This document shows, piece after piece, positions 28,789 to 47,926 of a stretch of DNA of 64,000 bases (position 1 is its first letter; every line of letters starts with the position of its first letter). The notes beneath the pieces were generated by a model that was not told where the DNA came from, searched no databases, and worked only from the letters and a program-made list of their open reading frames with translations. Position numbers and translations under genes: made by a program. Source of the DNA: Bacteroidales bacterium (lineage in GTDB: Bacteria; Bacteroidota; Bacteroidia; Bacteroidales; Marinilabiliaceae); NCBI GenBank assembly GCA_015061285.1, contig SUWW01000003.1, forward strand, positions 62,001-126,000, written 5' to 3'.

Positions 28789-31700
28789 ATGGACGAAAAA
28801 TCTCCTTCTCAGCGTCTCTACGAAGAGATAACAGCTACCATAAGCAGTAAAGGTGGTGAGCAGCAAATAATAGAGAAACTCTGCAATTTGTTGAATGCCT
28901 ACTGCGGCAGTAGTTCGATGCGTATAAGTTTCGATGGTATGTGGTTTTGCTCCACCAATTTTGCCAAAACCGACAATTGGCGTAAGCGCGTCGAGAGGGT
29001 CGACAATGTGTTTGAATATTACTATGCCGACGATGAGTCGCGCTACGATGAAGTTAGCGCCGATGGCTCGCTCGATATAGCTACACAGCTTGTTATGAGC
29101 TATTTGAGTGGCGAATTGCTACGTCGACTTAGCTACATACACCGCGAGCGCAAGAAAGAGCTTGCTGCCATCAACCACATAACCAGCATAACCAATCGTG
29201 GGCTTTCTATCAGCGAGACTCTCAGTCGCATAGCCCAATCGATGCCTCTTTCGTGGCAATATCCAGATTCTACACGCGTTCGCATCTCGTTTGAGGGCAA
29301 AGATTATCTCAGCACCGATTTTGCTGAAAGTCGTTGGATGCAAAAGGAGTCGTTTGTCACACTCGACGACAAAAAGGGTGTGATACAAGTCTATTATGTT
29401 GACGAACACCCTACGGAATTCGATGGCCCATTTCTCAAAGAAGAGTGTCAGCTCATTAGCAACATTGCCAAGATGGTGTGTGGCTACATAAATAATTACA
29501 AAGGCCGCGAGATTTATAATAATATTCACCATGCTACAGTGGTGTCGAATGGTGTGACGGAGGACTTCCGCAAGACGCTCACGCGCACCAAGCAGCCACT
29601 GCAATTGTTCTTCAATAAGCAGATTATCGAGAAATATGTATACCTCGATATGATGAAGTACAAGGTGAAGAACATTCTCTTTGTGGCTACTCTCTACGAT
29701 GCTTTCATACTCGAAAACGATGACTCGTTTTTTGAGCAATTTATGGGTGAAATATACCAGTACAGCCTCTTTTCGTTGCCGCGCATCACGGGTGTAACCA
29801 CATCGACTGAAGCACTCGAACTGATGAAGAGCACACATTTCGATCTCGCCATACTTATGGTAGGTCTCGATGTAGATGCTACGGTGAAACTTAGTGCCGA
29901 CATAAAAGAGCAACAAGCGGAAATGCCTGTATATCTGCTGCTTAATCAGACGAATAATGTTAAGTATTTTGAGCAGTTGGCAGCCTCAACGCCGTCAATT
30001 GACAAGTTGTTTGTTTGGAGTGGCAACTCGCAGATACTATTCTCAATAGTTAAGAGCATAGAGGATAATGCAAATGTCGAGAATGATACGAAGATTGGTC
30101 TCGTGCGAGTGATTTTGCTTGTTGAAGATTCGCCAATCTACTATTCAAAATATCTACAAATACTCTTCTCGGAAGTCTTTTCGCAAATTCAGCAACTTAT
30201 TGTAGATGAGCGTAATGAGATAAATAAAATATCCAAGATGCGTCAGCGTCCGAAGATTCTTCATGCGCGCAACTACGAAGACGCTATGTACATATTCGAG
30301 AAGTATAAAGACTTCCTCCTTTGCGTGATTTCCGATGTAGAGTTTGAGCGTAATGGCACTGTGAGCACGCGTGCCGGCATCGACTTGGTTAGCTACATGC
30401 TTAGTCAGATGCCGCAATTGCCAGCCGTGCTTCAGACTGCCGACTTGAGCAATGCCTCGGAAGCAGAGCGCCTTGGCGTGCCGTTGCTCAATAAGCATAG
30501 CGACAATTTGCAGAGCGAACTCATTTCGTTCCTTACCAGCCGTCTCGGATTTGGCGATTTCTATTTCCGCAATCACAACGGTACAGCGCTTGCACAAGCT
30601 AAAACGTTGAAGGAGTTTGGTACTGTTTTTCGCAATTTGCCGAAGGAATTTTTGTATGAATATGGCAAAGACCATCGCATTTCGTCGTGGCTGATGTCGC
30701 GAGGCGAAATACCACTTGCTCGAGCTGTGTTCCCCATAGTCAGCGATGATTATCCCGATCTTGAGGACTACCGCACAGCGATGCTCAACGAACTCACCAA
30801 ACATACTGCCAATAGGCGAAGAGGTAAACGCATCGTATACGACGAGATAGACGTACCCGATGAGAAAAATATCATCACGCTTGCTGCTGGTTCGCTTGGC
30901 GGCAAGGGGCGTGGCTTGGCATTCATCAATACACTCATTCAGAATATCGACACCACAGAGTTCGACGCTGAACTCAACATTCGCATACCTATCACAGCTG
31001 TTATAGGCACCGAAGAGTTTGTGCAATTTATGGAGCGAGGCAATTTATGGATACGCGTGAACGATGGTACTAAGTATGAAGAATTGCGCCGACTCTTTGC
31101 CAAAGTGCCACTGTCGGAGATACTGATGAAACGCATCACACGATTTGCCGAGCAGATACATAAACCCATAGCTGTGCGTTCGTCGAGTTTGTCGGAAGAT
31201 TCTATGAATCAGCCTTTTGCTGGAGTTTTTGATACATACATAGTTCCCAACAACAAGCCAAACATTAACGACAATGTAGCCGACATAGCCACAGCCATAA
31301 AAATGGTGTACGTATCTATATATAGCGAGACGTCGCGAGGCTATTTCCAAACCATTCGCCGAAATGTAGATGAAGAGAAGATGGCAGTGGTGCTACAAGT
31401 GCTTGTGGGTAGCCAACACGAAGACTATTTCTATCCGCACGTGGCAGGCACAGCTCAGAGCTACAACTATTACCCAGTGGCACACATGCAACCCGATGAA
31501 GGCTTTGCTGTAGCGGGCTTCGGACTTGGATATTATGTGGTAGGTGGTAGCAAGGCTTATCGATTCTCGCCTGCTTGGCCCAAAATAGACATCTCGTCAA
31601 CGGCTGATGCTGTAAAGAATACGCAAGTAGAATTTCTTGCACTCGACCTAAAAAAGAACAACATCGACTATGTGGCTGATGGCGAGCATGCACCACTTGC

Positions 31701-32559
31701 TACGCTCGACATATCGGAGGCCGAGCATCATGGCACATTGAAGCATTGCGCTTCGGTATACAATCCGCAAAACGACACCATCGAGCCAGGCTTGAGTAGC
31801 TATGGACCTCGTATTGTCAATTTTGCCAATATACTTAAATATGATTATGTGCCACTTGCCAAAGTGCTATCTATGTTGCTGACTATCACCAAAGAAGCTA
31901 TGGGCTCGCCCGTAGAACTTGAATGGGCCGTCGACCTCAATCCTGCCGAAAACGGGCTGCCGAGTTTCTATCTCTTACAGATGAAGCCTATCATCACAGA
32001 ATTGCAAAATAGTTCGGTGGAAATTGGCGAAGTAGATAGAGAAAAAGCTATTCTGTACACCACGCAGAGCCTTGGCAATGGCGATGTGAAAAATATTACG
32101 GATATTATTTATGCCGACCCAACTCTGTTCAACAAGATGGAGACTGAAGAGATGGCTCAAGAAATCGACTATCTGAACAGCAAAATGGCAAATAGCGACA
32201 GCAACTACATACTTATAGGTCCAGGGCGTTGGGGAACGCGCGACAAATTCATAGGCATTCCAGTGCAATGGTCGCAAATATCTAAGGCTAAGCTAATTGT
32301 GGAGATTAGTTTGCCAGGCTTCCCACTCGACTCGTCGCTGGGCTCGCACTTCTTCCACAATGTTACATCGATGAATATTGGTTATGCTTCGGTGCAAGAG
32401 TCGTCGGTGAGCGATTTTGTGAATTGGGATAACATCACCAAGATGCAACTCATAGAGCAAACGAAGCATTTCCGTCATGTGCGTTGCAAAGCTCCTTTGG
32501 TGCTGAAAATGAATGGAAAAGAGCGTAGGGCCATGGTGGCTTTCAGGTCTGATATTTGA
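28789..32559 (+). CDS. Sensor-receiver-PPDK-type ATP-grasp fusion protein
   Basis: This is a 1256-residue predicted cytoplasmic protein. The first 240 residues hold two copies of a roughly 100-residue unit (MRISFDGMWFCSTNF and VRISFEGKDYLSTDF). A receiver-like fold near 290-410 lacks a clear phospho-acceptor Asp. A second at about 438-590 has receiver features (VEDSP, an Asp in VISDVEF, a late Lys). From about 693 a PPDK N-terminal ATP-grasp domain follows: GGKGRGLAFIN, AVRSSSLSEDS, FAGVFDTY and EWAVDL (near 1045). The swivelling phospho-His domain and PEP-binding barrel of PPDK or PEP synthase are absent, and a C-terminal segment with GPGRWGTRD (near 1144) replaces them. It may phosphorylate a partner in response to a signal. 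The function is unknown. Confidence 0.8.
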   Translation: MDEKSPSQRLYEEITATISSKGGEQQIIEKLCNLLNAYCGSSSMRISFDGMWFCSTNFAKTDNWRKRVERVDNVFEYYYADDESRYDEVSADGSLDIATQLVMSYLSGELLRRLSYIHRERKKELAAINHITSITNRGLSISETLSRIAQSMPLSWQYPDSTRVRISFEGKDYLSTDFAESRWMQKESFVTLDDKKGVIQVYYVDEHPTEFDGPFLKEECQLISNIAKMVCGYINNYKGREIYNNIHHATVVSNGVTEDFRKTLTRTKQPLQLFFNKQIIEKYVYLDMMKYKVKNILFVATLYDAFILENDDSFFEQFMGEIYQYSLFSLPRITGVTTSTEALELMKSTHFDLAILMVGLDVDATVKLSADIKEQQAEMPVYLLLNQTNNVKYFEQLAASTPSIDKLFVWSGNSQILFSIVKSIEDNANVENDTKIGLVRVILLVEDSPIYYSKYLQILFSEVFSQIQQLIVDERNEINKISKMRQRPKILHARNYEDAMYIFEKYKDFLLCVISDVEFERNGTVSTRAGIDLVSYMLSQMPQLPAVLQTADLSNASEAERLGVPLLNKHSDNLQSELISFLTSRLGFGDFYFRNHNGTALAQAKTLKEFGTVFRNLPKEFLYEYGKDHRISSWLMSRGEIPLARAVFPIVSDDYPDLEDYRTAMLNELTKHTANRRRGKRIVYDEIDVPDEKNIITLAAGSLGGKGRGLAFINTLIQNIDTTEFDAELNIRIPITAVIGTEEFVQFMERGNLWIRVNDGTKYEELRRLFAKVPLSEILMKRITRFAEQIHKPIAVRSSSLSEDSMNQPFAGVFDTYIVPNNKPNINDNVADIATAIKMVYVSIYSETSRGYFQTIRRNVDEEKMAVVLQVLVGSQHEDYFYPHVAGTAQSYNYYPVAHMQPDEGFAVAGFGLGYYVVGGSKAYRFSPAWPKIDISSTADAVKNTQVEFLALDLKKNNIDYVADGEHAPLATLDISEAEHHGTLKHCASVYNPQNDTIEPGLSSYGPRIVNFANILKYDYVPLAKVLSMLLTITKEAMGSPVELEWAVDLNPAENGLPSFYLLQMKPIITELQNSSVEIGEVDREKAILYTTQSLGNGDVKNITDIIYADPTLFNKMETEEMAQEIDYLNSKMANSDSNYILIGPGRWGTRDKFIGIPVQWSQISKAKLIVEISLPGFPLDSSLGSHFFHNVTSMNIGYASVQESSVSDFVNWDNITKMQLIEQTKHFRHVRCKAPLVLKMNGKERRAMVAFRSDI

Positions 32560-32603
32560 AATGTTGTGATTTTTTGATAGCCGAAATTGTCATAAATGAG
32601 GAT

Positions 32604-32633
32604 TGACAAAGGAGGGTAGTGCAGATACTTTTG
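32604..32633 (+). promoter_or_regulatory. Promoter for the first calycin-like lipoprotein
   Basis: TTG (32604-32606) and TACTTTTG (32626-32633) are spaced by 19 bp. The downstream leader resembles that of the second calycin-like gene (promoter at 33375-33405), so the two regulatory regions look duplicated. Confidence 0.65.
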
Positions 32634-32674
32634 CTGCCGTAAATAATAAATCAAAAAAAACAACGAAAAAATCA

Positions 32675-33193
32675 ATGAAGACGAAACAATTCGCAGCTTT
32701 TCTATTTTTTGCTGCTGCTATGACAGCCTTTGTAGCTTGTGACAAAGACGATGATGCCCCAGTTGCCGAAACGCCAGATGTTGCTTCTGTTGCTACAGTT
32801 GTAGCTGGTGAGTACAATGGAACATTGAGCGCTAAGATTGAAAGTATGAGTTTGGATTGCGGTTCTGTCGACAATCAAACAATTACTATCACTGCTGCCG
32901 AAGATGGTACTATTGGTGTGGCTATACCAGCATTCACCTACGCTAAAATGGGTACTACAATTCCAGCTGCTACGCTTAATGGAATAGCTGTTGCTGCTGC
33001 CGAAGATGGTTCATACACCATAGGCGAAACAGAATTCTCGGAAACCGTCACTGTAGATGGGGCAGAGAAAACATATTCTGGTACGATGAGTGGCACAATA
33101 TCGGCCAACAAAAAAGCTACCATTGTTTACGAGTTGAAATATGGCAAAATGCCGATGGCTATCACTTTCACGTTCGAAACTTCGGCTGAATAA
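32675..33193 (+). CDS. Calycin-like beta-barrel lipoprotein (short paralogue)
   Basis: This 172-residue secreted lipoprotein has a signal peptide ending in FVAC with Cys22 lipidated, followed by an acidic DKDDD linker as in surface-exposed Bacteroidetes lipoproteins. The body is a predicted beta-barrel that closely parallels the last domain of the gene at 33438-35060, with the shared segments EFSETVTVD, AEKTY and a closing ITFTF. Such calycin-like proteins often neighbour HmuY-type heme-uptake genes. Heme binding is inference. The frame is open upstream to 32603, but that region contains the promoter, so the ATG at 32675 is chosen. It is probably transcribed alone, since a terminator follows. 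Confidence 0.82.
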   Translation: MKTKQFAAFLFFAAAMTAFVACDKDDDAPVAETPDVASVATVVAGEYNGTLSAKIESMSLDCGSVDNQTITITAAEDGTIGVAIPAFTYAKMGTTIPAATLNGIAVAAAEDGSYTIGETEFSETVTVDGAEKTYSGTMSGTISANKKATIVYELKYGKMPMAITFTFETSAE

Positions 33194-33262
33194 TTGCCTA
33201 ATACCTTCAAAATCATGAATTAAACGTCAGTTTATCAGATAAAAGTTTTAGGTATAATAAAA

Positions 33263-33306
33263 AGAATGCACCTAATCTCGTTGGGGATTTGGGTGCATTC
33301 TGTTTT
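33263..33306 (+). terminator. Terminator between the two calycin-like genes
   Basis: The stem AGAATGCACC (33263-33272) pairs with GGTGCATTCT (33292-33301), extends inward with weaker pairs, and is followed by GTTTTT. It separates the first lipoprotein gene from the hmu operon promoter. Confidence 0.8.
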
Positions 33307-33374
33307 TATGTACATACATATACACATAGCTATGAATGTGTCTTTGAGAGCCAATAATTAGTCATTATTAAGTA

Positions 33375-33405
33375 TTGCCGTGGCTAATTGGTGCCGATAC
33401 TTTTG
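33375..33405 (+). promoter_or_regulatory. Promoter for the second calycin-like gene and hmu operon
   Basis: TTG (33375-33377) and TACTTTTG (33398-33405) are spaced by 20 bp. It is the only convincing promoter seen between the terminator at 33263 and the end of hmuV, so it probably drives the whole operon. I found no recognisable Fur box. Confidence 0.65.
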
Positions 33406-33437
33406 CCGCATCAATTAATAACTACAACGAAAATCAG

Positions 33438-35060
33438 ATGAAAGTAAAATCTTTTATGGCAATGTTGCTTGCGGCAACATTTATTGTAAATCTCACTTCG
33501 TGCGATAACGACGATGATGATCCAGTTGTTGAAACTGCTACTACGGCCGATAAAGTGGCTGGCTCTTATTCTATCAATTATTCCCTTGCAACAGCTAAGT
33601 ATTTCTCTAATATGTACACCGACGAGAGTGGCAATAGTGTAGTTCTCACTCAAGAAGGCGACACCACAGTTAGCGTTGCTTTTACATCGTCTACGTGGGG
33701 CACATTCGCTATCAACGCAGGTGTTTCGGTTGAAAATGGTGTTTATACCATATCGGGCGAAGGCACTGTAGAGATGGCTGGCATGAGCGGTACGAAATCT
33801 ACCTACGAAGCTACTATCGAAGGTACGTTTGCCGATGGCGCATTTACGTCGCTCGTATTCACAGCTCCTTCTGTTATGGGTGGCACAGCTATTTCGGTTT
33901 TCACTGGTGAGGCTCCAGCTTATGCCATAGCAGGTAAATATGGCACTACATATTCACTCGCTTCGGCTACATATTTCAAGAATATGTACACCGACGAAAG
34001 CGACAACAATGTAGTTCTTGAGGCAATCTCTACCGACAGTGTAAGTGTAGCATATACATCGTCTACATGGGGCACATTCGCTATCAACGCAGGTGTTTCG
34101 GTTGAAAATGGTGTTTATACCATATCGGGCGAAGGCACTGTAGAGATGGCTGGCATGAGCGGTACGAAATCTACCTACGAAGCTACTATCGAAGGTACGT
34201 TTGCCGATGGCGCATTTACGTCGCTCGTATTCACAGCTCCTTCTGTTATGGGTGGCACAGCTATTTCGGTTTTCACTGGTGAGGCTCCAGCTTATGCCAT
34301 AGCAGGTAAATATGGCACTACATATTCACTCGCTTCGGCTACATATTTCAAGAATATGTACACCGACGAAAGCGACAACAATGTAGTTCTTGAGGCAATC
34401 TCTACCGACAGTGTAAGTGTAGCATACACATCGTCTACATGGGGCACATTCGCTATCAATGCAGCTGTTTCGGTTGAAAATGGTGTTTATACCATATCGG
34501 GCGAAGGCACTGTAGAGATGTCGGGTCATGGCGAAGCAAAATCTTATGATGCAACAGTAGAAGGTACGTTTGCCGATGGCGCATTTACATCGCTTGTGTT
34601 CACAGCTCCATCGGTTATGGGTGGCACAACTATAACAGTTTATAATACCACAGCCGACGCAGCTTATAGCGTAGCTGGCTCATACACTGGTACGCTGAGC
34701 GCTTATCTTTCAGAATTGTCGATGGATGGTGGAAGTGCAGAAAATCAGACAGTGAAAATTGCATACGCCGAAGATGGTGTTGTGAGCGTTACTGTACCTT
34801 CGTTCACTTATGGCGGCGCAATGACTTTGCCATCTGCTACAATAACGGGCGTAACTGTAAAAGCCAACGAAGATGGCTCCTACACTCTTGGCGAATCGGA
34901 ATTCTCGGAAACTGTTACAGTAGATGACGCAGAGAAAACCTATGCTGGTAAAATAAATGGTACTATCGCTGCCGATGGCTCAGCCGAAATTGTCTATGAT
35001 GTTAACTATGGTGCAATGCCATTTACTATAACCTTCACATTCAAAACAGTAACAGAATAA
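33438..35060 (+). CDS. Multidomain lipoprotein: three tandem lipocalin-like repeats plus a calycin-like domain
   Basis: This 540-residue lipoprotein has a signal peptide ending in NLTSC with Cys22 lipidated, then an acidic DNDDDD spacer. Three repeats of about 124 residues follow, each starting near AGKYGTTYSLASATYF or its variant and containing STWGTFAIN and GVYTISGEGTVEM. A fourth domain (about 405-540) is paralogous to the 32675 protein. The upstream frame contains the promoter, so the ATG at 33438 is the start. hmuY follows after 6 bp, making it the first gene of the heme operon. A surface ligand-binding or heme-handling role is inferred from context only. Confidence 0.82.
   Translation: MKVKSFMAMLLAATFIVNLTSCDNDDDDPVVETATTADKVAGSYSINYSLATAKYFSNMYTDESGNSVVLTQEGDTTVSVAFTSSTWGTFAINAGVSVENGVYTISGEGTVEMAGMSGTKSTYEATIEGTFADGAFTSLVFTAPSVMGGTAISVFTGEAPAYAIAGKYGTTYSLASATYFKNMYTDESDNNVVLEAISTDSVSVAYTSSTWGTFAINAGVSVENGVYTISGEGTVEMAGMSGTKSTYEATIEGTFADGAFTSLVFTAPSVMGGTAISVFTGEAPAYAIAGKYGTTYSLASATYFKNMYTDESDNNVVLEAISTDSVSVAYTSSTWGTFAINAAVSVENGVYTISGEGTVEMSGHGEAKSYDATVEGTFADGAFTSLVFTAPSVMGGTTITVYNTTADAAYSVAGSYTGTLSAYLSELSMDGGSAENQTVKIAYAEDGVVSVTVPSFTYGGAMTLPSATITGVTVKANEDGSYTLGESEFSETVTVDDAEKTYAGKINGTIAADGSAEIVYDVNYGAMPFTITFTFKTVTE
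33696..34439 (+). repeat. Two 372-bp tandem units, identical except for one base
   Basis: Units 33696-34067 and 34068-34439 are in frame (124 codons each). Base-by-base comparison shows only one difference, a T/C change close to the end of each unit. Sequence before and after is related but clearly diverged, giving three repeat domains in the protein. The near-identity implies a recent duplication or ongoing gene conversion. Confidence 0.95.
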
Positions 35061-35066
35061 TCTATC

Positions 35067-35750
35067 ATGACAAGCTACATACGCAGTAGACGTCTGATAG
35101 AAAACCTAACCATCACACTGGGAGTAGTTATGCTGCTTCCAGCTTGTGATGGTATTTTTGAAGACATCTACGACAATAACAAAACAACAACAGAGGAAAA
35201 ACTTGTTGAAGGTCAGTTTACTGTAGATGCTACAAGCTACACGGCATGGCACTATCTCGACCTCGATGCAGACTCTATAAACTTCGTTACTTCAACAATA
35301 GAAAGCGAAGAAAACGAAACAGGCATTCCTGAAAATTGGACCATAGCTCTGCATCGCTACGATGTGAAGACAAATGGCGGCGCAGCTGTCGAAACAGACT
35401 ATACCTCAATATCCGACCTTGAGGCAGCCATCGAAGCCGATCCCATGCTTCTCGAGTCGCTTAATTTCAGCGCCGATACCACTTCGGCAAGCAAGATTAT
35501 TATAGATATGAGCCACATGATGGATGGCTATCTTATCTATCAGAATACGCATTACAATGCCATTATTGCTCGATGGCTCAACGTCGACACAAGCACTATG
35601 CCGCCTATCTATACTATGAGCCATAAGACATACATATTGCGCACTGCTGAAGGAAAATATTTCGCCCTTTACTTGGTTAATTATATGAACGAAAAATCGG
35701 TGAAAGGCAATATGACTGTGCAATATAAACAGTTGTCAATCGAGGAATGA
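35067..35750 (+). CDS. hmuY: HmuY-family heme-binding lipoprotein (hemophore)
   Basis: HmuY binds heme at the cell surface and passes it to the receptor HmuR. This 227-residue lipoprotein has lipobox LLPAC (Cys27). It carries family-typical segments: SYTAWHYLDLDADS, ENWTIALHRYDVKTNGGA and the closing KTYILRTAEGKYFALYLVNYMNE. Candidate heme ligands lie in the Met/His clusters MSHMM and YTMSH. Known homologues use either two His or two Met, and I cannot assign which applies here. It sits 6 bp after the repeat lipoprotein and upstream of hmuR, the standard hmu order. Confidence 0.92.
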   Translation: MTSYIRSRRLIENLTITLGVVMLLPACDGIFEDIYDNNKTTTEEKLVEGQFTVDATSYTAWHYLDLDADSINFVTSTIESEENETGIPENWTIALHRYDVKTNGGAAVETDYTSISDLEAAIEADPMLLESLNFSADTTSASKIIIDMSHMMDGYLIYQNTHYNAIIARWLNVDTSTMPPIYTMSHKTYILRTAEGKYFALYLVNYMNEKSVKGNMTVQYKQLSIEE

Positions 35751-35812
35751 CGAATCAGATCTTCGTTCGCTGTACGTCATTATTATTCATATTACATTCA
35801 TTATAGAAATCA

Positions 35813-37753
35813 GTGATTTACAATTATATACGTATCAAAAACTTGCTTGTGGCAATGTCGATAGTTAGTTGTCAGTTGACGATTGTTGCCCAAGAGCAAG
35901 ATTCTACAGTCAACCGCGATCTCGAACAGGTTGTTGTTACGGCTACTCGTACGCCCAAAACTCTCAAAAGTGTACCAGTGGTTACACGATTGATAACCGA
36001 AGCCGACATAAAAAAAGTTGATGCTACCAATGTGCAAGACCTTCTCACTCAGGAACTTCCTGGATTGGAATTTACCTACTCAATGAATCAGCAAACAAGC
36101 ATCAATCTCTCTGGTTTTGGTGGCAATTCGGTGCTGTTTCTTGTTGATGGTGAGCGACTTGCCGGCGAAACACTCGACAATGTAGATTACACTCGTCTCA
36201 ACCTCGACAATGTGGGCAGAATAGAGATAGTGAAGGGTGCTGCATCGACGCTCTATGGCTCAAATGCTGTGGGCGGTGTGGTAAATATCATGACGCGAAC
36301 CTCGTCGGAGCCATGGACACTTAATCTCAATGCTCGCTATGGTAAGCACAATGAGTGGCGCCATGGATTGTCAACTTCGTTTTGTGTTGGCAAGTTCAAC
36401 AACTCTCTCAATGCGCAACATACCGCAATCGATCGTGTGCACCTCTCCGATAATTCTGAATCGAGCATATCAAATATTTATGCTTATCATACGTGGAATG
36501 TGAAAGATAAACTTGTGTTCGCGCCAACTGACGTGCTGAAGTTCACTGGGCGTGTGGGCTATTTCTTTCGCGAACGTGAGAGCTCCGAAACAAGCCATGA
36601 CCGCTATCGCGACTATTCGGCAGGACTGAAAAGCGATTGGAACATAAGCGACAATACTGATCTCACCATTGCATATAGCTTCGATCAATATGACAAAAGC
36701 GACTATGCCACACTTAGCAATATGGACATTCGCGACTATAGCAATGTGCAGAATATTACACGTGCCGTACTTAACCAAAAAATTGGCAAAAATACACTCA
36801 CCTTTGGTGCCGACTATATGCGCGACTATCTGATGTCATACCAATTTGAGAATAACGATAGCAAAAAACAACACACCATCGATGCTTTCGGACAATTCGA
36901 TTGGCAAGCTGCCGACCATTGTTCGCTCCTCATGGGCATTCGCTACGACCATTTCTCCGAAGCCGATGCCAATAGCGTTACGGGTAAATTGGCAGCTATG
37001 TATAATACTAAATATTGCTCGCTACGCCTCAACTATGCTGGCGGTTTCCGTGCTCCGACGCTCAAAGAGATGTATATGAAGTTTGATATGGCTTCGATAT
37101 TTATGATTTATGGCAACGAAGACCTCAAGCCAGAGCGTAGCCACAACTTCTCGTTTGCCATAGAGCATGCCAAAAACCTATCCAATTGGCGCTACAACAT
37201 CGTAGCTACGGCATACTATAACCTTGTATCTAATCGCATATCTACGGCTTGGAACCAAAGTCTCAATGGTATGCGCTACATCAATATGGCAGACTTGCAA
37301 GTGATTGGCGCCGATGTGTGTTGCTACATAAAAACCGATTGCGGACTTGGACTAAAAGGTGCGTATGCCTATACTCATGAACATATCAAAAAAGGCGAAC
37401 CCGAGACTTCGAGCACCCGTCCACACACCGTCACAGCTCGCTTCGACTACGACCATCAGTGGAAAAACTACGGATTCAACGTGGCTCTCAGCGGACGTTT
37501 CCTTTCATCGGTTACCGTTGATGAATATACTTCGGTAACCGATTATACATCAACATCTTCAGTCGATTATGATGGCTATACCATTTGGAAACTAACTCTA
37601 CTTCAGCGCATTTGGAAGGGAATAAATCTGACCTTTGCCGTCGATAATATATTTAACTATACGCCAAAGGTTTACTATAGTAACTCTCCATCAACCACTG
37701 GTGCAACTTGTAGTGTAGGACTCTCAGTCGATGTTGAAAAGTTATTCAATTAA
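35813..37753 (+). CDS. hmuR: HmuR TonB-dependent heme receptor
   Basis: This outer-membrane receptor imports heme using energy delivered by TonB. It has 646 residues, with a signal peptide from a GTG start (35813), a short N-terminus, and a plug domain beginning near LEQVVVTATRTP. The 22-strand barrel follows. The heme-receptor landmarks are GFRAPTLKEMYM and NEDLKPE, equivalent to the FRAP/YRAP and NPNL boxes. No His lies between them, but several Met do. The last residues, VEKLFN, place Phe one before the end. The gene follows hmuY after 62 bp without a clear promoter. Confidence 0.93.
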   Translation: MIYNYIRIKNLLVAMSIVSCQLTIVAQEQDSTVNRDLEQVVVTATRTPKTLKSVPVVTRLITEADIKKVDATNVQDLLTQELPGLEFTYSMNQQTSINLSGFGGNSVLFLVDGERLAGETLDNVDYTRLNLDNVGRIEIVKGAASTLYGSNAVGGVVNIMTRTSSEPWTLNLNARYGKHNEWRHGLSTSFCVGKFNNSLNAQHTAIDRVHLSDNSESSISNIYAYHTWNVKDKLVFAPTDVLKFTGRVGYFFRERESSETSHDRYRDYSAGLKSDWNISDNTDLTIAYSFDQYDKSDYATLSNMDIRDYSNVQNITRAVLNQKIGKNTLTFGADYMRDYLMSYQFENNDSKKQHTIDAFGQFDWQAADHCSLLMGIRYDHFSEADANSVTGKLAAMYNTKYCSLRLNYAGGFRAPTLKEMYMKFDMASIFMIYGNEDLKPERSHNFSFAIEHAKNLSNWRYNIVATAYYNLVSNRISTAWNQSLNGMRYINMADLQVIGADVCCYIKTDCGLGLKGAYAYTHEHIKKGEPETSSTRPHTVTARFDYDHQWKNYGFNVALSGRFLSSVTVDEYTSVTDYTSTSSVDYDGYTIWKLTLLQRIWKGINLTFAVDNIFNYTPKVYYSNSPSTTGATCSVGLSVDVEKLFN

Positions 37754-37765
37754 TCATATATACAT

Positions 37766-40700
37766 ATGAAAAAGAGATTAATACTTATAGCGCTGAGCGT
37801 AATAGGCTTAGTAGTAATATGTTGGGTGTATACGTCGTTTTTGAGTCGCACTCGTATTGCTTTCATCAACTATCAGCCTTCGCAGCTTGGCGAAATTGCC
37901 CATGCCAACAACACTTGGTTCATCGACATTCGTGAACTCTCGCCGCAAAATATTGATGAGGTAGCGAAAAACGACATGGTGTTTGTCAATGCCATGGGAT
38001 TGCATATTACCGAACAGCAGCGTGAAGAGCTACAAAAGGCAGCTAAAAATGGTCTGCCTATATTGTCGACGGCTGTCACCAATCCGGCCAACGACATCAA
38101 CAATCTTTTCGACGATGCTGATATTCTGAAAGCATATCTTGCTGCTGGCGGTCGTCACAACTATCATTCTATGCTTAGTTATGTGCGTAAGTATATCGAT
38201 GGAAAAATAATTGCAGCCGAAGAGCCCGATTCGGTTATCGATGCTCCTGAGTATGATATATATCACCCCGACATCGAAGATGCTTCGAATGAGGAACTTG
38301 GCTTCAATTCTGTAGCTGACTACGAACAGTTTCTGAAACACAATAATTTGTGGAACGAAGTGGCTCCGCGCATTGTTATCACTGGGTTGCTTGGCAATGG
38401 TGCCGATCTCGTGTCGGCTTTTGAGCGTGCTGGCGATATGGCATATTACATACCGTCGCTTCGAAACTATATTGCCAATGGTCGCCTCGACTCCATCAAG
38501 CCTGATGCTATTGTTAATATGGCGCATGGTCGTATGGGCGACTATGTTGTTGAGTATCTGCAAAAAAACAACATTCCGCTTTTTGTCCCTCTCAATGTAA
38601 ATCAACTTGCCGACGATTGGGAGATCGACAAGCAAGGTATGCTTGGCGGATTCTTGTCGCAGAGTGTGGTCACGCCCGAAATTGATGGCGCAATACGCCC
38701 ATATGCACTATTTGCCAACTATCTTAATGCCGACAATATTCAAGAAAATCACACCATTCGTGGACGAGCTGATGGGTTTGTGTCGACTGTAGAAAACCAT
38801 GTCGCGCTCAAACGTCTTGTCAACAAGCAGAAGCGTGTGGCTATATATTACTTCAAAGGCCCTGGACAAAATGCACTGACAGCGAGTGGCTTGGAGGTGA
38901 TTCCGTCGTTGTATAATTTCTTGCGCCATTTGCAATCTGAAGGATACAACGTGGCCGGATTGCCCGATTCGCCTAAGAAGTTAGCTGATATGATACAGCA
39001 GCGAGGCTCCGTATTTGGTACGTATGCAGAAGGCCGTCAAGCCGAGTTTGTGGCATCGGGTTATGGACAAATAGTCAATAGAAATGAGTTCGAAAAATGG
39101 ACCGACAATTGTCTGACGAAGCAACAGCGAACCGAGCTACAAGCCGCTAATGGCGATTTTCCTGGTAGCTATCTTGCTTCCGACAATGGAGATCTCGTTT
39201 TGCCTTGCATAGTGTTTGGCAACATAGCTCTTATGCCGCAACTGCCTGCTGGTGGTGGCGACGATAGTTTCAGCATGGTGCATGGCACAAATGCGGCTCC
39301 TCCATATCCATACGTAGCGGAATACTTATGGGCACAAAATGCTTTCCAAGCTGATGCTATCGTGCATTTCGGCACGCATGGTAGTTTGGAGTATACTCCA
39401 CGCAAACAAAATGCGCTTGGAAGCAACGATTGGCCAGTAACGCTTATTGGCAATCTTCCTCATATTTATATGTACACAATAGGCAATGTCGGCGAAGCTC
39501 TGATTGCAAAACGTCGTTCGTATGCCGAGATTGTAAGCTATCTCACTGCGCCTTTTTGCGAAAGCGAGCTTACTTCTACTTATAACGCGCTGAATGCCGC
39601 TATCGATAAGTATAATCGACTTCCCGAAAATGCTTCCGAAAAGCAACGTGCAGCACTCGCCGATGAGGTCAAGCACATAACTTGCCAGTTGCAACTCGAC
39701 AAAGACTTGCGCATCGAAAGCAAAAACTACACAGCTGCCGACATAAGTCGTATCGAAGATTTCGCTGCCGAACTCATAAGTGAGAAGATGCAAGGCTCGC
39801 TCTATGTGCTTGGTGAGCCATATTCGCCTGCCGATCAGCGTTCTACGGTGGTGGCTATGGCTGCCGATGCCATAGCTTATAGCTATTTCAATTTGCAAGT
39901 TGTGGCTGGCTTACAGAATAAAGATTTTGTAAAAAAACGCCGCGCTTTCGATGCTAAATATCTCGCTCCTGCTAAACGTTATGTTGCCGATGTAATGAAT
40001 GGAAAGTTGTCGGCAGATAAACTTTTGAATATTTATGGTATAACGATGGCCGATTTGGCGATAGCGCATAAGACCGATAGTATATTGAAAGCTCCTGCCC
40101 GTATGCAAGCCATGATGATGAGTGCCGCCGGAAGTAGCAAAAATGCTTCGGGTGCTGCGGTGATGATGGGCGGTCAATCATCGTCGAATGGTGCCAAAAA
40201 AGGTTCATCGATGTCGGCTGCTATGCATGCCAAGATGAAAAAAATGGCGCGTGGCATGTCGCCCGAAGAGATGCTCGCAAAAGCCAAAGAGATGGGTGCT
40301 CCTCCCGAAGCTCTCGAAAAAATGCGCGCCAAGATTACTGGCAAGTCCGATGGTGGTAGTGCTATGAAGATGTCGCGCCCTAAGGTGCAATTATCACAGT
40401 CGGCTAAGGATTCGGCTCGTGCTATCCTCGAGTTGGAACATTCGATAGCTAATATCGATAATTATGTTAATGCGCTGATATATAGTACAAAAAACGAACT
40501 TAGCTCTGCGTCGAATGCGTTGAATGGTGGATATGTGTCGCCTCAACCTGGTGGCGATCCTATTGCCAATCAAAACGTATTGCCTACTGGCCGTAATATG
40601 TATGGTATAAATGCTGATGCCACGCCATCGGAGTCAGCATGGCAGACTGGAGTAGAATTGGCTCAAGCCACTATCGATTCTTATCGCGCTGCGCATAATG

Positions 40701-42085
40701 GCAACTATCCTCATAAAGTGAGCTATACATTGTGGAGTGGAGAATTTATCGAGACTCAAGGCGCCACCATTGCTCAAATTCTGTATATGCTCGGCGTAGA
40801 GCCCATTCGCGACTTCTTTGGCAGAGTAAACGACCTACGTCTTATTCCATCGGCCGAACTTGGGCGTCCGCGTATCGATGTAGCAGTACAAACCTCTGGC
40901 CAATTGCGCGATTTGGCGGCGTCGCGTCTGTTCCTCATAAATAGAGCTGTAAGCATGGCTGCCGAGGCCAACGATAGTTCGCTCAATTCCAATTATGTGG
41001 CCGAAGGTATGGTCGAAGCCGAGAAATATCTCACCGATAAAGGAGTGCCGCCTCTCGAAGCTCGTCAGGTGGCTCGTCATCGTGTGTTTGGTGCTCAAGG
41101 TGGAGGCTATGGCACTGGCATTCAGGCAATGGTGGAAAAGAGTGATGCTTGGAGTTCAGCAAACGATATTGCCACAACTTATCTCGATAACATGAATGCA
41201 TTCTATGGTTCGCAAGATGAATGGGAGCAAGTGAATAAATACGCTTTCGAAGCGGCTCTCACGCATACCGATGCCATTGTGCAACCACGCCAGAGCAACA
41301 CTTGGGGCGCACTTAGCCTCGATCATGTATATGAATTTATGGGAGGCATGAGTGCTGCTGTGCAACACGTAACAGGTTCTACGCCAGAAGCCTATTTCTC
41401 CGACTACCGTAATCGCAATCATGCTCGTGTGCAGTCGCTCACCGATGCCATTGGCGTAGAGAGTCGTGCTTCTCTGCTTAATCCTGCGTACATTCAGCGA
41501 CGCATGAAGGGTGGGGCTTCGTCGGCCGACGAGATTGCCGAAATGGTCACCAACACCTTCGGTTGGAATGCACTACGTCCCGAAGCCATCGACAATTCTC
41601 TCTGGGATAGAATCTACGATACCTATGTGAAAGACCAGTATAATTTGGGTGTGCGTCAATATTTCGAGCGTGAAAATCCTTCGGCTTTGCAAGAAATTTC
41701 GGCTGTGATGCTCGAGAGTGCGCGAAAACAAATGTGGAATGCTTCGCGTGAGCAGATTGCTGAGTTGGCAAAATTGCATACCGAACTCGTAAATACATAC
41801 AATCCAAGTTGTTCTGGCTTTGTGTGCAACAATGCTAAGTTGCGCGATTTCATCTCTAATATTGAGACCGACAAAACGCAAGTGTCCGATTATCAGCAGC
41901 ATATAAACGCCATTCGTAGCACTACTACAGCTTCTAACGATAATGCCACTACTCTCAAAAAGGAAAGCTTCAACGCTCAGCAGCAGACCGAAATAAACGA
42001 GGTTTCGCCCTTGTTTATTGTGGTGTTAGTGGTTGTCTTTGTCATAATTGTTTTGATTATCGTTCGCCGTCAGCGCAGAGAGTGA
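37766..42085 (+). CDS. hmuS: HmuS, CobN/Mg-chelatase-like membrane protein
   Basis: HmuS belongs to the CobN/BchH large chelatase-subunit family. In heme-uptake operons it is thought to act on imported heme, and iron removal (dechelation) has been proposed. The 1439-residue protein has one membrane span at each end (about 6-26 and 1411-1432), so the CobN-like bulk probably faces the periplasm. CobN landmarks include HFGTHGSLEYTPRKQ and VHGTNAAPPYPY. Between about residues 772 and 875 lies a low-complexity insert with about 16 Met, Ala, Ser, Gly and Lys, absent from the usual CobN core. It starts 12 bp after hmuR, and hmuT overlaps its 3' end by 4 bp. Confidence 0.92.
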   Translation: MKKRLILIALSVIGLVVICWVYTSFLSRTRIAFINYQPSQLGEIAHANNTWFIDIRELSPQNIDEVAKNDMVFVNAMGLHITEQQREELQKAAKNGLPILSTAVTNPANDINNLFDDADILKAYLAAGGRHNYHSMLSYVRKYIDGKIIAAEEPDSVIDAPEYDIYHPDIEDASNEELGFNSVADYEQFLKHNNLWNEVAPRIVITGLLGNGADLVSAFERAGDMAYYIPSLRNYIANGRLDSIKPDAIVNMAHGRMGDYVVEYLQKNNIPLFVPLNVNQLADDWEIDKQGMLGGFLSQSVVTPEIDGAIRPYALFANYLNADNIQENHTIRGRADGFVSTVENHVALKRLVNKQKRVAIYYFKGPGQNALTASGLEVIPSLYNFLRHLQSEGYNVAGLPDSPKKLADMIQQRGSVFGTYAEGRQAEFVASGYGQIVNRNEFEKWTDNCLTKQQRTELQAANGDFPGSYLASDNGDLVLPCIVFGNIALMPQLPAGGGDDSFSMVHGTNAAPPYPYVAEYLWAQNAFQADAIVHFGTHGSLEYTPRKQNALGSNDWPVTLIGNLPHIYMYTIGNVGEALIAKRRSYAEIVSYLTAPFCESELTSTYNALNAAIDKYNRLPENASEKQRAALADEVKHITCQLQLDKDLRIESKNYTAADISRIEDFAAELISEKMQGSLYVLGEPYSPADQRSTVVAMAADAIAYSYFNLQVVAGLQNKDFVKKRRAFDAKYLAPAKRYVADVMNGKLSADKLLNIYGITMADLAIAHKTDSILKAPARMQAMMMSAAGSSKNASGAAVMMGGQSSSNGAKKGSSMSAAMHAKMKKMARGMSPEEMLAKAKEMGAPPEALEKMRAKITGKSDGGSAMKMSRPKVQLSQSAKDSARAILELEHSIANIDNYVNALIYSTKNELSSASNALNGGYVSPQPGGDPIANQNVLPTGRNMYGINADATPSESAWQTGVELAQATIDSYRAAHNGNYPHKVSYTLWSGEFIETQGATIAQILYMLGVEPIRDFFGRVNDLRLIPSAELGRPRIDVAVQTSGQLRDLAASRLFLINRAVSMAAEANDSSLNSNYVAEGMVEAEKYLTDKGVPPLEARQVARHRVFGAQGGGYGTGIQAMVEKSDAWSSANDIATTYLDNMNAFYGSQDEWEQVNKYAFEAALTHTDAIVQPRQSNTWGALSLDHVYEFMGGMSAAVQHVTGSTPEAYFSDYRNRNHARVQSLTDAIGVESRASLLNPAYIQRRMKGGASSADEIAEMVTNTFGWNALRPEAIDNSLWDRIYDTYVKDQYNLGVRQYFERENPSALQEISAVMLESARKQMWNASREQIAELAKLHTELVNTYNPSCSGFVCNNAKLRDFISNIETDKTQVSDYQQHINAIRSTTTASNDNATTLKKESFNAQQQTEINEVSPLFIVVLVVVFVIIVLIIVRRQRRE

Positions 42086-42780
42086 GAGGTATGACTGTGC
42101 TTATACTTATAATATTGACAATAAGCCTATTGCTGTATCTATTTCGCCTTTCGCTTTGTGGGTGGATATATATGGCTTCCTATTCGCTATTATCGGCATT
42201 GATGGTAGGCTTAGCTTGGCGCTGGGCAGCAAGTCAGAGTGGCCCGCAAGTGTTGGCACTACTTGGCAATGCCAGCGAAATGCTCAATGTGGCTGTGCTA
42301 TTGAATGTTGAAGTGATTGTGCATTTGACGTTTTGCATACTTAGTGCACAAAGGAAAAACTTTACTCGTCTGCAAAACATTGTTTTTCAGATAGTAAGGT
42401 TTATTCCTGGTCTCTTTGTCTTCTTGTCTTTCATAGCGCTCGAAGTCTATGCCATGGTGTCGAATCCAGGAATCGACTTTCAAAAAATAGCTTGGCTTAT
42501 GGCCATTGCCATATTTATAATTACCCCCATTGCCACTGTTGGCTTGCGCTACCTTTTCCCCGAAAAAGAGTTGCGCCTTGAGGTGATATTTCACATAGCT
42601 ATAATGATGATGCTTATGGGAGTGATAGCCACGGTAAATGGTAGAACTGCGGCTGTAGCAATCGACAATACTGATGTCGTCTCTTCACTTAGTGTAGCTG
42701 CTCTGCTTATGCTTGGCATTGCAGTTGGAGTATTGAATTTTTACATAAAGAAAAAAGCTAATAACAAAAATAACCAATGA
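42082..42780 (+). CDS. hmuT: HmuT-like small membrane protein
   Basis: This 232-residue integral membrane protein has six or so hydrophobic segments and few charges. It has no motif I recognise beyond its position. In Porphyromonas-type hmuYRSTUV operons this slot is hmuT, a permease-like protein of unproven role. The start overlaps the hmuS stop by 4 bp, and its stop overlaps the hmuU start by 4 bp, so translation is probably coupled. Confidence 0.8.
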   Translation: MRGMTVLILIILTISLLLYLFRLSLCGWIYMASYSLLSALMVGLAWRWAASQSGPQVLALLGNASEMLNVAVLLNVEVIVHLTFCILSAQRKNFTRLQNIVFQIVRFIPGLFVFLSFIALEVYAMVSNPGIDFQKIAWLMAIAIFIITPIATVGLRYLFPEKELRLEVIFHIAIMMMLMGVIATVNGRTAAVAIDNTDVVSSLSVAALLMLGIAVGVLNFYIKKKANNKNNQ

Positions 42781-43388
42781 GCTATATATCAAACGTTTTG
42801 TACTGGATTTCAACAGGTCTGCTTGTGCCTGTTGTACTTATGCTAATTCTGTTTTTCTTGCGTTCGCTACTACTTATAGGCAACTTCTTTGGACAATATG
42901 TAGCAATGCATAAAACACAAAAAGAAATCTCCCCAATATTGTCATCGGTCGACACTGCTAATGTGTTGGAACTCAATAGTAAATTGCCTGCAAAGAGTTC
43001 TATGCCTATGATAAATACGGCTAAAACAATTATTGCTCATGCCGATAGCGAAGCACGAATAGAACTTGAATTGGCAAAGTTTGAAGATGCAGCCGAAAGC
43101 GAGATGTCGTCGGCCAAAACACTTGGCAAAATGGCTCCTATGCTTGGTCTTATGGGCACTCTTATACCCATGGGGCCTGCACTTGTAGGACTCTCGGCTG
43201 GCGATATGGCTTCGATGGCCTATAATATGCAAGTGGCTTTCGCCACAACGGTTGTAGGACTTTTCTCGGCTGCCATTGGTGTTGTCATTCTTCAAGTGAA
43301 GCGCCGCTGGTTCAAACGCGACTTGGCTAATCTGCAGTTTATTGCCGATGTAATTGCTGAGCGTAAGAATATGGAGGGTATACAATGA
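42777..43388 (+). CDS. hmuU: HmuU, MotA/TolQ/ExbB-family protein
   Basis: This is a second ExbB-like proton-channel protein, of 203 residues. An N-terminal span is followed by a cytoplasmic loop. Two further spans contain LGLMGTLIPMGPALVGL and FATTVVGLFSAAIGVVI, the TolQ/ExbB pore signatures in variant form. It overlaps hmuT and hmuV by 4 bp each. With HmuV as a possible ExbD-like partner it could power HmuR or HmuS locally, separate from the 25427-27434 ExbB-ExbD-TonB operon. That role is inferred. Confidence 0.88.
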   Translation: MSYISNVLYWISTGLLVPVVLMLILFFLRSLLLIGNFFGQYVAMHKTQKEISPILSSVDTANVLELNSKLPAKSSMPMINTAKTIIAHADSEARIELELAKFEDAAESEMSSAKTLGKMAPMLGLMGTLIPMGPALVGLSAGDMASMAYNMQVAFATTVVGLFSAAIGVVILQVKRRWFKRDLANLQFIADVIAERKNMEGIQ

Positions 43389-43723
43389 AACGCTTTCGTC
43401 GTCGTGTGCACTTTTCCGACTCTGAAGAAGATGTCGATCCAATGTCGACAGTGAGTAATCTGTTCGATGCTGCAATGGTTTTTGCTGTTGCTCTCATGGT
43501 GGCAATAGTTACGCATTTCAATATGCAGGAGATGTTTTCTAAAGAAGATTTTACGGTAGTAAAAAATCCTGGTGCCGATAATATGGAGATAATCACCAAA
43601 AAAGGAGAAACCATCGAGCGCTACACGCCATCGGAGAGTCAAGATTCGCAAGCATCGCGTGGCAAACGAGTAGGTGTTGCCTATCAACTTGAAAATGGCG
43701 AGATTATCTATGTGCCTGAGTGA
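43385..43723 (+). CDS. hmuV: HmuV, DUF2149 family protein
   Basis: This 112-residue protein has a basic N-terminus (KRFRRRVHFSD), an acidic EEDVDPMSTVSNLFDAA segment, one membrane span (about 30-50) and a small periplasmic end. The pattern is that of DUF2149, the last gene of hmuYRSTUV operons. The DPMSTVSNLFDAAMVFAVAL stretch resembles an ExbD membrane helix with an acidic residue at its start, so a partnership with HmuU is plausible. No terminator is evident after its stop. Confidence 0.87.
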   Translation: MKRFRRRVHFSDSEEDVDPMSTVSNLFDAAMVFAVALMVAIVTHFNMQEMFSKEDFTVVKNPGADNMEIITKKGETIERYTPSESQDSQASRGKRVGVAYQLENGEIIYVPE

Positions 43724-45898: not shown

Positions 45899-47830
45899 TT
45901 ACTTATGCTCTCTGAATATTTCGGAGAAATATAATTGCTTTAGAGCCTTTAGCGCATTGGCTTTGCGTTGTGTCAATGAATCGGGCAATGTGCTTAGTAC
46001 GTATTCGGTGTTTATGGCTATTGTTTGGCTTAGCGAGTCGGCCAATAGGTCTTGTCCTGCTTTGAAATATTTAGCATTGCTAAGCGTGAGATTTGCCAAT
46101 GTAGGCACAATGTCGGAGTGACTTCCCATGCGCGACGTGTCGGCTCTAACATCAATATTTTTAGGTATGTATATGTAAAGAGGCACAGAATAGCGCATGT
46201 ATCTGTTTTTCTCATCGTTGGGCAGTATGAGTCGTATATTGTGGTCGCCTGTGATTGCTACAATCGTGTTTTGTGCTGCGGGCGAACTCTTCAGGCGAGT
46301 CATGAATCGCCCGAGTTCGTTGCTTTCATATTGGTATCCATGAAGATATGCTGTAGTTGAAGCATTGTCGGCAGCAAAGGCATCGTCGGGAGTGTTGTCT
46401 AAGTCGATACGTCCAAATTCATATCCATCGGGAAACTCAAATGGCGTGTGGCTTGTCGATGTCAGACATAACATGAATTTAGGTTTGTCGCTTGGCTCTT
46501 CAAGCATTTTGTTGACAGTCTTTAGCATGTCGCCATCGTATACGCCCCATGTTTGATTGCACTCTACATCGGGATATTTGTCGAGCATTTCATATTTTCC
46601 GTAGACATGGTCGAAACTTTGCTTTGGTAGCACGTCGATTAGGTTGCGCCACGATATTTCGATACCCGACACGAAGTATGTATCGTAGCCATTCTCTTTG
46701 AATAGTTTAGCTGTCGACGTAGGATAGCTTATGTTGCGATATGCCGATGTAAACATGTGCGGATATGCAGCACTTATGGTCATGTGTTCAACGGCATCGA
46801 TAGTTCCATTGGTAGCCGAAAGAAAATGTCGAAAAAGTATATCCTCGTTGAGGTGCTTTCGCATTTCTCCAAGCAAATCCATGTCATAGAGAGCCTCGTA
46901 GTCTATTAGTCGATTGCTCCAACTTTCTGTAAGTATGATGATTATGTTCATCTTGGGCGCTTTGGGCGCATCGGAGGTAATATCGTAAAGAGCATCGGCT
47001 ATGGCTATGTTTTGTGCGCTATCGTTAGGAATATTGAGCCATTCGGCAATAGCTTCATCTTTAGAACTAAAACCATTATCCGCAAGAATATCAGCGTCAT
47101 TCTGAAGAGCGAATTGCTGCTTCTTTTCGCTCCAAGCCTTTTTCATCATAAATGTTGCATTGGGCACGCAAGCGTTGAGTGTCGACGATGGCGATACGTA
47201 TATATCTTCGGCACGCAGAGGAAATGTGCCCAAATTTCCGCGAATGGCTATAGGTATGATTATTAGTCCTACTGCAATTGCTGCAATTTGTCGTGATTTG
47301 TTCTTGATGCTATTGAGCGTAATGTGCTTGTATACAATACTTATTAGCCAGCCAACTATTACCATAGCTAAAGCTATTTTGATAATTGGAGTGTCGTTCC
47401 ATACGCCTTTTATAATGAGTATTGGCTCTTCGTCTAATAGGTCGAAAGTGACGATGTTGAAGTGCTCTGCGAAGTTGCCGAAGAAAACAATATCGGCTAA
47501 TCCGAGAATAAACATCAGTGTGCCTATAATGGTTGTATACCAGCGATTTATGCTAAAGGTCCATTTGCCAGAGTTTATTACTGTAGCTACAATAGCGATT
47601 ATGAATATTGGCAAAATGGCGTAAGCTGCAATCTGTGCATCAAAACGTATGGCATTCGCAATAGCTAAAGGAATGTGTTGGACGTTGTCGCTAAATAGGT
47701 TTACATCTGCAAATTTGAACGTAAATGCTATGCGAGCTATCATCTGAATAGCTATGAGAATTGCCATAGACATTAGTACGTTGAAAATGAGAGTGCCCGC
47801 CACGCACACTCTGCTGCTGGTATTTTTCAT
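45899..47830 (-). CDS. LTA-synthase-like membrane sulfatase-fold protein
   Basis: This 643-residue protein has about five N-terminal membrane helices (to about residue 190) and a large periplasmic alkaline-phosphatase-fold domain of the sulfatase/LtaS type. Landmarks are NIIIILTESWSN (metal Glu), the presumptive Thr nucleophile in SATNGTIDAVEHM, HTPFEFP, and the late metal motif ITGDHN. In Gram-negatives such proteins transfer phosphoglycerol or phosphoethanolamine to envelope glycolipids or glycans. The product here is unknown. It is transcribed divergently from the related YejM-like gene. Confidence 0.88.
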   Translation of the reverse strand: MKNTSSRVCVAGTLIFNVLMSMAILIAIQMIARIAFTFKFADVNLFSDNVQHIPLAIANAIRFDAQIAAYAILPIFIIAIVATVINSGKWTFSINRWYTTIIGTLMFILGLADIVFFGNFAEHFNIVTFDLLDEEPILIIKGVWNDTPIIKIALAMVIVGWLISIVYKHITLNSIKNKSRQIAAIAVGLIIIPIAIRGNLGTFPLRAEDIYVSPSSTLNACVPNATFMMKKAWSEKKQQFALQNDADILADNGFSSKDEAIAEWLNIPNDSAQNIAIADALYDITSDAPKAPKMNIIIILTESWSNRLIDYEALYDMDLLGEMRKHLNEDILFRHFLSATNGTIDAVEHMTISAAYPHMFTSAYRNISYPTSTAKLFKENGYDTYFVSGIEISWRNLIDVLPKQSFDHVYGKYEMLDKYPDVECNQTWGVYDGDMLKTVNKMLEEPSDKPKFMLCLTSTSHTPFEFPDGYEFGRIDLDNTPDDAFAADNASTTAYLHGYQYESNELGRFMTRLKSSPAAQNTIVAITGDHNIRLILPNDEKNRYMRYSVPLYIYIPKNIDVRADTSRMGSHSDIVPTLANLTLSNAKYFKAGQDLLADSLSQTIAINTEYVLSTLPDSLTQRKANALKALKQLYFSEIFREHK

Positions 47831-47858
47831 CTTGAAAAACGTAGTTTATTTCGGGCCG

Positions 47859-47866
47859 CAAAGATA
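47859..47866 (-). promoter_or_regulatory. -7 box for the LTA-synthase-like gene
   Basis: The minus strand reads TATCTTTG, matching TAnnTTTG, 28 bp before the start codon. No -33 box at normal distance was found. Confidence 0.45.
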
Positions 47867-47884
47867 CAAAATGTGTGTGTTCAC

Positions 47885-47914
47885 TTTGTCATTGGATACA
47901 TTGCGTTAATTTTG
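47885..47914 (+). promoter_or_regulatory. Promoter for the YejM-like gene
   Basis: TTTG (47885-47888) and TAATTTTG (47907-47914) are spaced by 18 bp. Initiation would fall only a few bases before the ATG at 47927, so the ATG at 47939 is an alternative start. Confidence 0.6.
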
Positions 47915-47926
47915 CCGCGAGATTCT

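Follow-up and report, generated by a model that had tools for sequence, protein, structure and literature searches.

We analysed a stretch of 64,000 nucleotides from a Bacteroidales bacterium of the Marinilabiliaceae (GCA_015061285.1, contig SUWW01000003.1, positions 62,001 to 126,000; hereafter the window), which carries a hmuYRSTUV haem-uptake operon headed by cal2, the gene of a multidomain calycin-like lipoprotein, with the gene of a short paralogue, cal1, lying upstream. For dominant gut bacteria haem is a key iron source, and work on Hmu has treated it as HmuY plus HmuR. The genes of the locus, in window coordinates, are the following:

32675-33193, + strand: cal1, ATG start, 172-aa lipoprotein, lipobox FVAC followed by DKDDD
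33438-35060, + strand: cal2, ATG start, 540-aa lipoprotein, lipobox LTSC followed by DNDDDD, domain architecture A-A-A-B
35067-35750, + strand: hmuY, haemophore-like lipoprotein of the HmuY family (PF14064, 112 bits)
35813-37753, + strand: hmuR, TonB-dependent receptor with Pfam Plug and TonB barrel domains
37766-42085, + strand: hmuS, CobN-like membrane protein of the haem dechelatase family (CobN-Mg_chel, 936 bits)
42082-42780, + strand: hmuT, GTG start, membrane protein, no Pfam family
42777-43388, + strand: hmuU, MotA/TolQ/ExbB family (Pfam MotA_ExbB)
43385-43723, + strand: hmuV, Pfam DUF2149

The reading of open reading frames (ORFs) and Pfam domains places all six hmu genes in order on one strand, with the S/T, T/U and U/V pairs overlapping by 4 nt each and only 6 nt separating the cal2 stop from hmuY. 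This confirms an earlier note on this DNA, which had described the six genes with these overlaps from S to V and a multidomain lipoprotein heading them; Pfam supports every gene except hmuT, homologues of whose product stand at the matching position in three loci of the same genus (L008, L012, L023). The window HmuY combines its PF14064 match with a pair of candidate axial-ligand residues, Met151 and Met178. The hmu operon itself is ordinary; cal2 is its leading gene, which makes it a cal-hmuYRSTUV operon.

Both lipoproteins match the family Calycin_like (PF13944) with whole-protein scores of 71.6 bits for cal1 and 111.8 bits for cal2 at a curated cut-off of 30, and within their own genome matches to this family are confined to these two genes (five places, E up to 0.001). 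The domains are of two types, A and B, and cal2 contains three type A copies repeated with a period of 372 nt, followed by a type B domain sharing 58% identity with the sole domain of cal1:

about 32801-33169, + strand: type B calycin-like domain of cal1, its sole domain
33555-33908, + strand: type A domain 1 of cal2, with an M-A-G-M loop and a VMGG loop
33927-34280, + strand: type A domain 2 of cal2, 98% identical to copy 1 over 300 nt
34299-34643, + strand: type A domain 3 of cal2, M-S-G-H replacing M-A-G-M
34671-35036, + strand: type B domain of cal2, with a YGAMPF loop

AlphaFold2 models of cal1 and of type A domain 1 (predicted local distance difference test scores of 91.7 and 96.3) show a predicted eight-stranded up-and-down barrel, and the predicted strand order of the type A model puts the conserved residues at one barrel end, the second Met of the loop being residue 80 of the model. 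This suggests that the near-invariant Met (or His) loops may share one barrel mouth. Structure prediction, proposed with the earlier note as a check for a lipocalin-like pocket, supports the barrel, and the predicted strands point to a putative pocket. In both window lipoproteins the lipobox Cys is followed by acidic residues, which we take to be the Bacteroides surface-export signal; at least three acidic residues among the six after the Cys occur in 33 of the 62 proteins that could be parsed among 78 linked or window proteins, 16 being unparsed.

Upstream of each cal gene lies a promoter-like site, and a terminator-like hairpin stands between the two genes:

32603-32633, + strand: promoter-like site of cal1, TTG-N20-TACTTTTG
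33263-33308, + strand: terminator-like hairpin with T-run in the cal1-cal2 interval, -24.3 kcal/mol, z -6.3
33375-33405, + strand: promoter-like site of cal2 and the hmu operon, of the same form and spacing (TTG-N20-TACTTTTG)

The sites are presumably of the Bacteroidota promoter type, a consensus we assume here. Exact matches to TTG-N20-TANNTTTG occur only twice in the window at a chance expectation of 1.28, so that the motif alone proves little and its support comes from position. Because a stable hairpin with a T-run closes cal1, this gene is probably its own transcription unit, and the short upstream paralogue with a parallel promoter proposed in the earlier note holds in the form of a single type B domain behind a promoter-like site of the same spacing. 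At the related loci described below, 61 of 78 cal genes could be parsed, and 56 of these 61 have TAnnTTTG in the 110 nt before the cal start, compared to 5% of shuffles; in the 60 nt before hmuY the motif occurs in 1 of 74.

The association of calycin-like genes with hmuY extends far beyond the window. We collected a nearest-receptor set of 80 HmuR loci, kept from 241 confirmed relatives found via two peptide patterns. A calycin-like lipoprotein gene adjoins hmuY in 76 of the 76 loci with upstream sequence, the remaining four being cut by a contig edge (L049, L069, L073, L090). Assignment was by script for 74 loci and by reading for L027 and L085, since hmuY and hmuR lie apart there; L101 was assigned at a looser threshold only (E up to 0.01). 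The gap between cal and hmuY has a median of 10.5 nt and is at most 50 nt in 69 of 74 loci, with the mechanically set hmuY start overlapping cal in L043 and L048. With stricter profiles the 78 calycin ORFs at these loci have the architectures A-A (33), B (18), A (13), A-B (13) and A-A-A-B (1), and at a few loci the calycin gene is split into two ORFs; at L057:6187-7014 two successive ORFs make up the gene, each holding a whole or partial type A repeat. Within the genus, 10 of 13 HmuY places have a calycin-like lipoprotein gene immediately before hmuY, and two genomes (G057, G059) have calycin-like genes and no HmuY match. Eight loci of the nearest-receptor set (L027, L028, L029, L030, L099, L101, L104, L105) repeat the genus loci L023, L012, L024, L008, L022, L018, L020 and L021.

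The receptors at these loci carry a methionine signature. Window HmuR has Met91 in the plug and Met426 between its FRAP and NEDL boxes and is not a His-type HmuR of the P. gingivalis kind, with a plug His and a His between the FRAP and NPDL boxes. We take columns 91 and 426 to be haem-ligand positions. Both are Met in 74 of 74 cal-linked HmuR, the Met91 count being partly selected because one search peptide pattern includes this column; column 426 and the draw described below are free of this selection. Among 22 other HmuR-like ORFs (longer than 550 aa, below 450 bits, in the 28 regions described below; the plug-column alignment is gappy), His occurs in 7 at column 91 and in 14 at column 426, with Met at column 426 in 3. 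P. gingivalis HmuR is described with two His and a T. forsythia receptor with Tyr/Met at the homologous places (PMC6200708).

A second draw of 198 genomes spread evenly over the order yielded a HmuY match in 56, of which we fetched 28 regions representing the 29 strongest HmuY places outside the window, weaker places being left out. Seven regions have Met at both receptor columns (L107, L109, L112, L117, L123, L124, L134), and cal stands next to hmuY in 6 of these 7 versus 0 of the 21 others; in L113, one of these others, no receptor is seen. Of the six positive regions, at least four also belong to the 80-locus set (L089/L109, L106/L112, L064/L117, L063/L124). The HmuY ORF of L129 gave a weak 20-bit calycin match in one scan, gone from the later count. 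PF13944 does occur away from hmu, as would be expected if calycin-like lipoproteins were common and one of them had come to stand upstream of hmuY by chance. Such an accident is very improbable, since the linkage counts of both draws contradict it and PF13944 is present in just 24 of the 198 order genomes, at 33 places in total; cal2 is not a chance neighbour of hmuY.

Several related arrangements were observed alongside. L107:2803-8528 contains two hmuY-hmuR pairs abreast, the Met-type pair being calycin-led and the other receptor having His at column 426. At L013:7982-10890 and L014:5412-8281, type B calycin lipoproteins lacking the MP motif described below stand beside TonB receptors and without HmuY; the best NCBIfam model for these receptors is a siderophore receptor, with a score under its cut-off. 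In the same-genus locus L023 (8322-10039) two genes intervene between hmuY and hmuR, one product being a cysteine peptidase of the C10 type that carries a Spi inhibitor domain (Pfam), the other a lipoprotein-like protein of 189 aa and no family.

The signature continues in HmuY and in the calycin domains themselves. Met151 and Met178 of window HmuY align with both Met ligands of B. vulgatus Bvu, for which bis-Met haem binding by Met145 and Met172 is reported from mutagenesis (PMC7956564), these residues being mapped onto columns 151/178 via the window alignment. Linked HmuY have Met/Met in 73, Ile/Tyr in 4 and Met/gap in 1 of 78 distinct sequences, and unlinked HmuY of the order draw have Met/Met in 2 of 24 (L129, L134). 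For the calycin domains, counts include related sequences uncorrected for shared ancestry, and domains of fewer than 70 residues or with X are excluded. Linked type A domains show M-M-M at columns 72/74/105 in 77 of 95 and M-H-M in 6 of 95; copies 1 and 2 of cal2 have M-A-G-M and copy 3 M-S-G-H, whose His the profile leaves outside column 74. A type B 'MP' motif near the domain end is present in 33 of 34 linked versus 3 of 21 unlinked domains. Window cal1, which carries MPM, was kept out of the linked count and L011 is in neither set; of the 26 loci intended as unlinked, 20 yielded a domain and the other 6 did not. One further domain comparison left out domains of fewer than 95 residues.

Relatives of cal2 are found in studied bacteria. 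PDB entry 3RWX matches as A then B (E 1.4e-28 with the A profile, 9.4e-27 with the B profile) and is BF2706, a putative outer membrane protein of B. fragilis NCTC 9343 with an entry title giving no function. Its tag is adjacent to that of HmuY, BF2707, solved as 4GBS (PMC4320075) and also designated BF9343_2622 (PMC6200708). BF9343_2621 is a 283-aa lipoprotein encoded near a TonB receptor gene and tabulated among surface-exposed proteins (47% biotinylated peptides, 'Yes' in the apparent protease-sensitivity column; PMC4319957); the residue numbering of 3RWX ends at 283, and adjacent tags together with matching length make BF9343_2621 apparently the same protein as BF2706. In B. fragilis 638R the hmu operon spans BF638R_2714-2721 (PMC6460266) with HmuY at 2716 (PMC10102347), so that two tags precede HmuY. 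The B. thetaiotaomicron hmu operon BT0491-BT0498 is 109- to 291-fold up in the iron-dependent stimulon, with 291-fold for BT_0497 (HmuY) and 264-fold for the hypothetical BT_0498 (PMC10434189), the apparent cal orthologue. A 2025 figure labels 'cal' genes in hmu loci of some species (PMC12106395, Figure 1 legend), and the extra hmu gene described for P. endodontalis is a different gene with a type IX secretion system (T9SS) domain (PMC11208336). No functional study of hmu-linked calycin genes was found in the literature searched, which stops short of most subscription papers.

The calycin lipoproteins are mostly less conserved than the HmuY and HmuR they accompany. Between the window and L023, cal2 is the most divergent of seven genes compared, with 57% identity versus 78% for HmuY, 87% for HmuR, 93% for HmuS and 85%, 89% and 90% for T, U and V. 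Across 157 non-independent pairs with a HmuR identity of 70-97%, conservation over the last 150 aa of cal falls below that of HmuY in 133 pairs and below that of HmuR in 154. The calycin domain set differs even between close relatives: L047 and L050 are 97% identical in HmuR and HmuY and have architecture B versus A-B. This divergence and architecture change fit a surface protein under pressure and leave room for a function as a shield or decoy that protects HmuR against phages and antibacterial toxins, with which the low conservation of cal2 and the varying domain number agree. We regard this function as improbable, as it does not predict the conserved Met or the linkage to Met-type receptors; one paper, differing from the description in a review, calls the target of BSAP-4 a beta-barrel outer membrane protein (PMC8264420), which may or may not be the hmu-linked protein.

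Taken together, the evidence favours reading cal2 as an additional surface component of a Hmu system of the methionine type, and we give a probability of about 0.5 to the proposal that cal2-type calycin domains form its component for capturing haem or a haem carrier. According to this model, the cal2 product would be an outer-membrane lipoprotein, probably surface-exposed, with repeated eight-stranded calycin-like barrels, acting in a clade whose HmuR has Met at two columns often occupied by His elsewhere and whose HmuY mostly has Met at both presumed ligand positions. Each calycin domain would present a Met (or Met/His) site at one barrel mouth, which may capture haem, probably ferrous under gut anaerobiosis, or dock a haem carrier. 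HmuY and HmuR would next receive the haem for import, with HmuU and HmuV energising uptake and HmuS, reported to be a haem dechelatase (PMC12583661), removing the iron; more repeats would result in more capture sites. cal1 is a single-domain paralogue matching the C-terminal domain of cal2, behind a promoter-like site of its own. Gene order, linkage, repeats, residue conservation and the predicted fold are shown by the present analysis; surface exposure and iron regulation of the apparent orthologues, bis-Met haem binding of Bvu and dechelation by HmuS come from the literature; that the calycin domains bind haem, with which ligands, how it is handed over and what cal1 does are inferred. A more specific form, possible but put forward tentatively, is an all-Met relay for ferrous haem in gut Bacteroidales. 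Here the repeat calycin lipoproteins would be a haemophore family not recognised before, whose Met/Met or Met/His sites supply haem to HmuY of the bis-Met kind and to a Met-gated HmuR; such haemophores would be absent from His-type Hmu systems, and the repeats would tune capacity. The suggestion in the earlier note that the calycin-like domains are surface haem binders extending the HmuY-HmuR pair is strengthened by the linkage, the type B Met, the Met-type HmuY and HmuR, and the surface exposure and iron regulation of the apparent orthologues, its haem-binding part staying at the level of inference.

Several observations weigh against the capture model. The 80 loci represent one receptor clade and are non-independent, and the Met91 count is partly selection-biased. 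Three of the 13 genus HmuY places are without cal (G056:C80, G055:C230, G060:C48), and the Met-type locus L134 is without an adjacent cal. The unlinked L011 (G057) has an A-B calycin protein with MPM in a genome without a HmuY match; with L011 included, the unlinked MP count becomes 4 of 22. All three Met are likewise present in L143, the sole unlinked type A domain of the control, so that type A gives no linked/unlinked contrast, and four linked HmuY (L099, L101, L104, L105) are Ile/Tyr, though their receptors keep both Met. The putative pocket is derived from the predicted strand order, the apparent identity of BF9343_2621 with BF2706 from tags and length and not from sequence, and the apparent orthology of BT_0498 from its position beside hmuY and not from sequence. 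In the literature searched we saw no haem-binding data for any calycin-like protein, and cal2 might instead be a surface accessory that binds no haem, docking HmuR in a SusCD-like manner or gripping a host or dietary haemoprotein, with HmuY alone ligating haem. Set beside the Met conservation of the linked type A and type B domains, such an accessory role appears less probable to us than the capture model. As separate observations, L011:7764-8630 is an A-B calycin lipoprotein with MPM lying away from hmuY, and the genome of L134 (G170) encodes large proteins with MP-motif calycin domains elsewhere (L145).

If a surface component does mark the whole receptor class, the published six-gene view of Hmu would fall short for many gut Bacteroidales. 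This proposal is open to direct test: a crystal structure is available (3RWX), BT_0498 offers a likely target for genetics, and the residues proposed as ligands are specified. In the surroundings of the locus, window 28789-32559 encodes a protein of 1256 aa whose Pfam matches at E up to 0.001 are limited to a pyruvate phosphate dikinase ATP-binding domain (702-1082), and downstream of the operon window 45899-49744 encodes two divergently oriented sulfatase-family proteins, one with DUF3413.

Compared with the hmuYRSTUV systems of P. gingivalis and B. thetaiotaomicron, whose gene order we take from the literature, the window shows the same six families in the same order. Unlike the systems as described there, a comparison with the descriptions and not with the protein sequences, the window operon is calycin-led and its HmuR has Met where His is expected. 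Bvu (3U22, E 1.8e-43) and 4GBS (E 5.7e-41) are the closest solved relatives of window HmuY. The lipoprotein chain of a SusCD complex (5FQ6 chain E; BT2261 in 3H3I) shows 11% identity and belongs with a different receptor class. 3RWX/BF2706 shares the A-B layout, with one type A domain compared to three in cal2. In section 3.1 of PMC12106395 'cal' is a label only, to which the Met-type linkage, the Met conservation and the repeats are added here.
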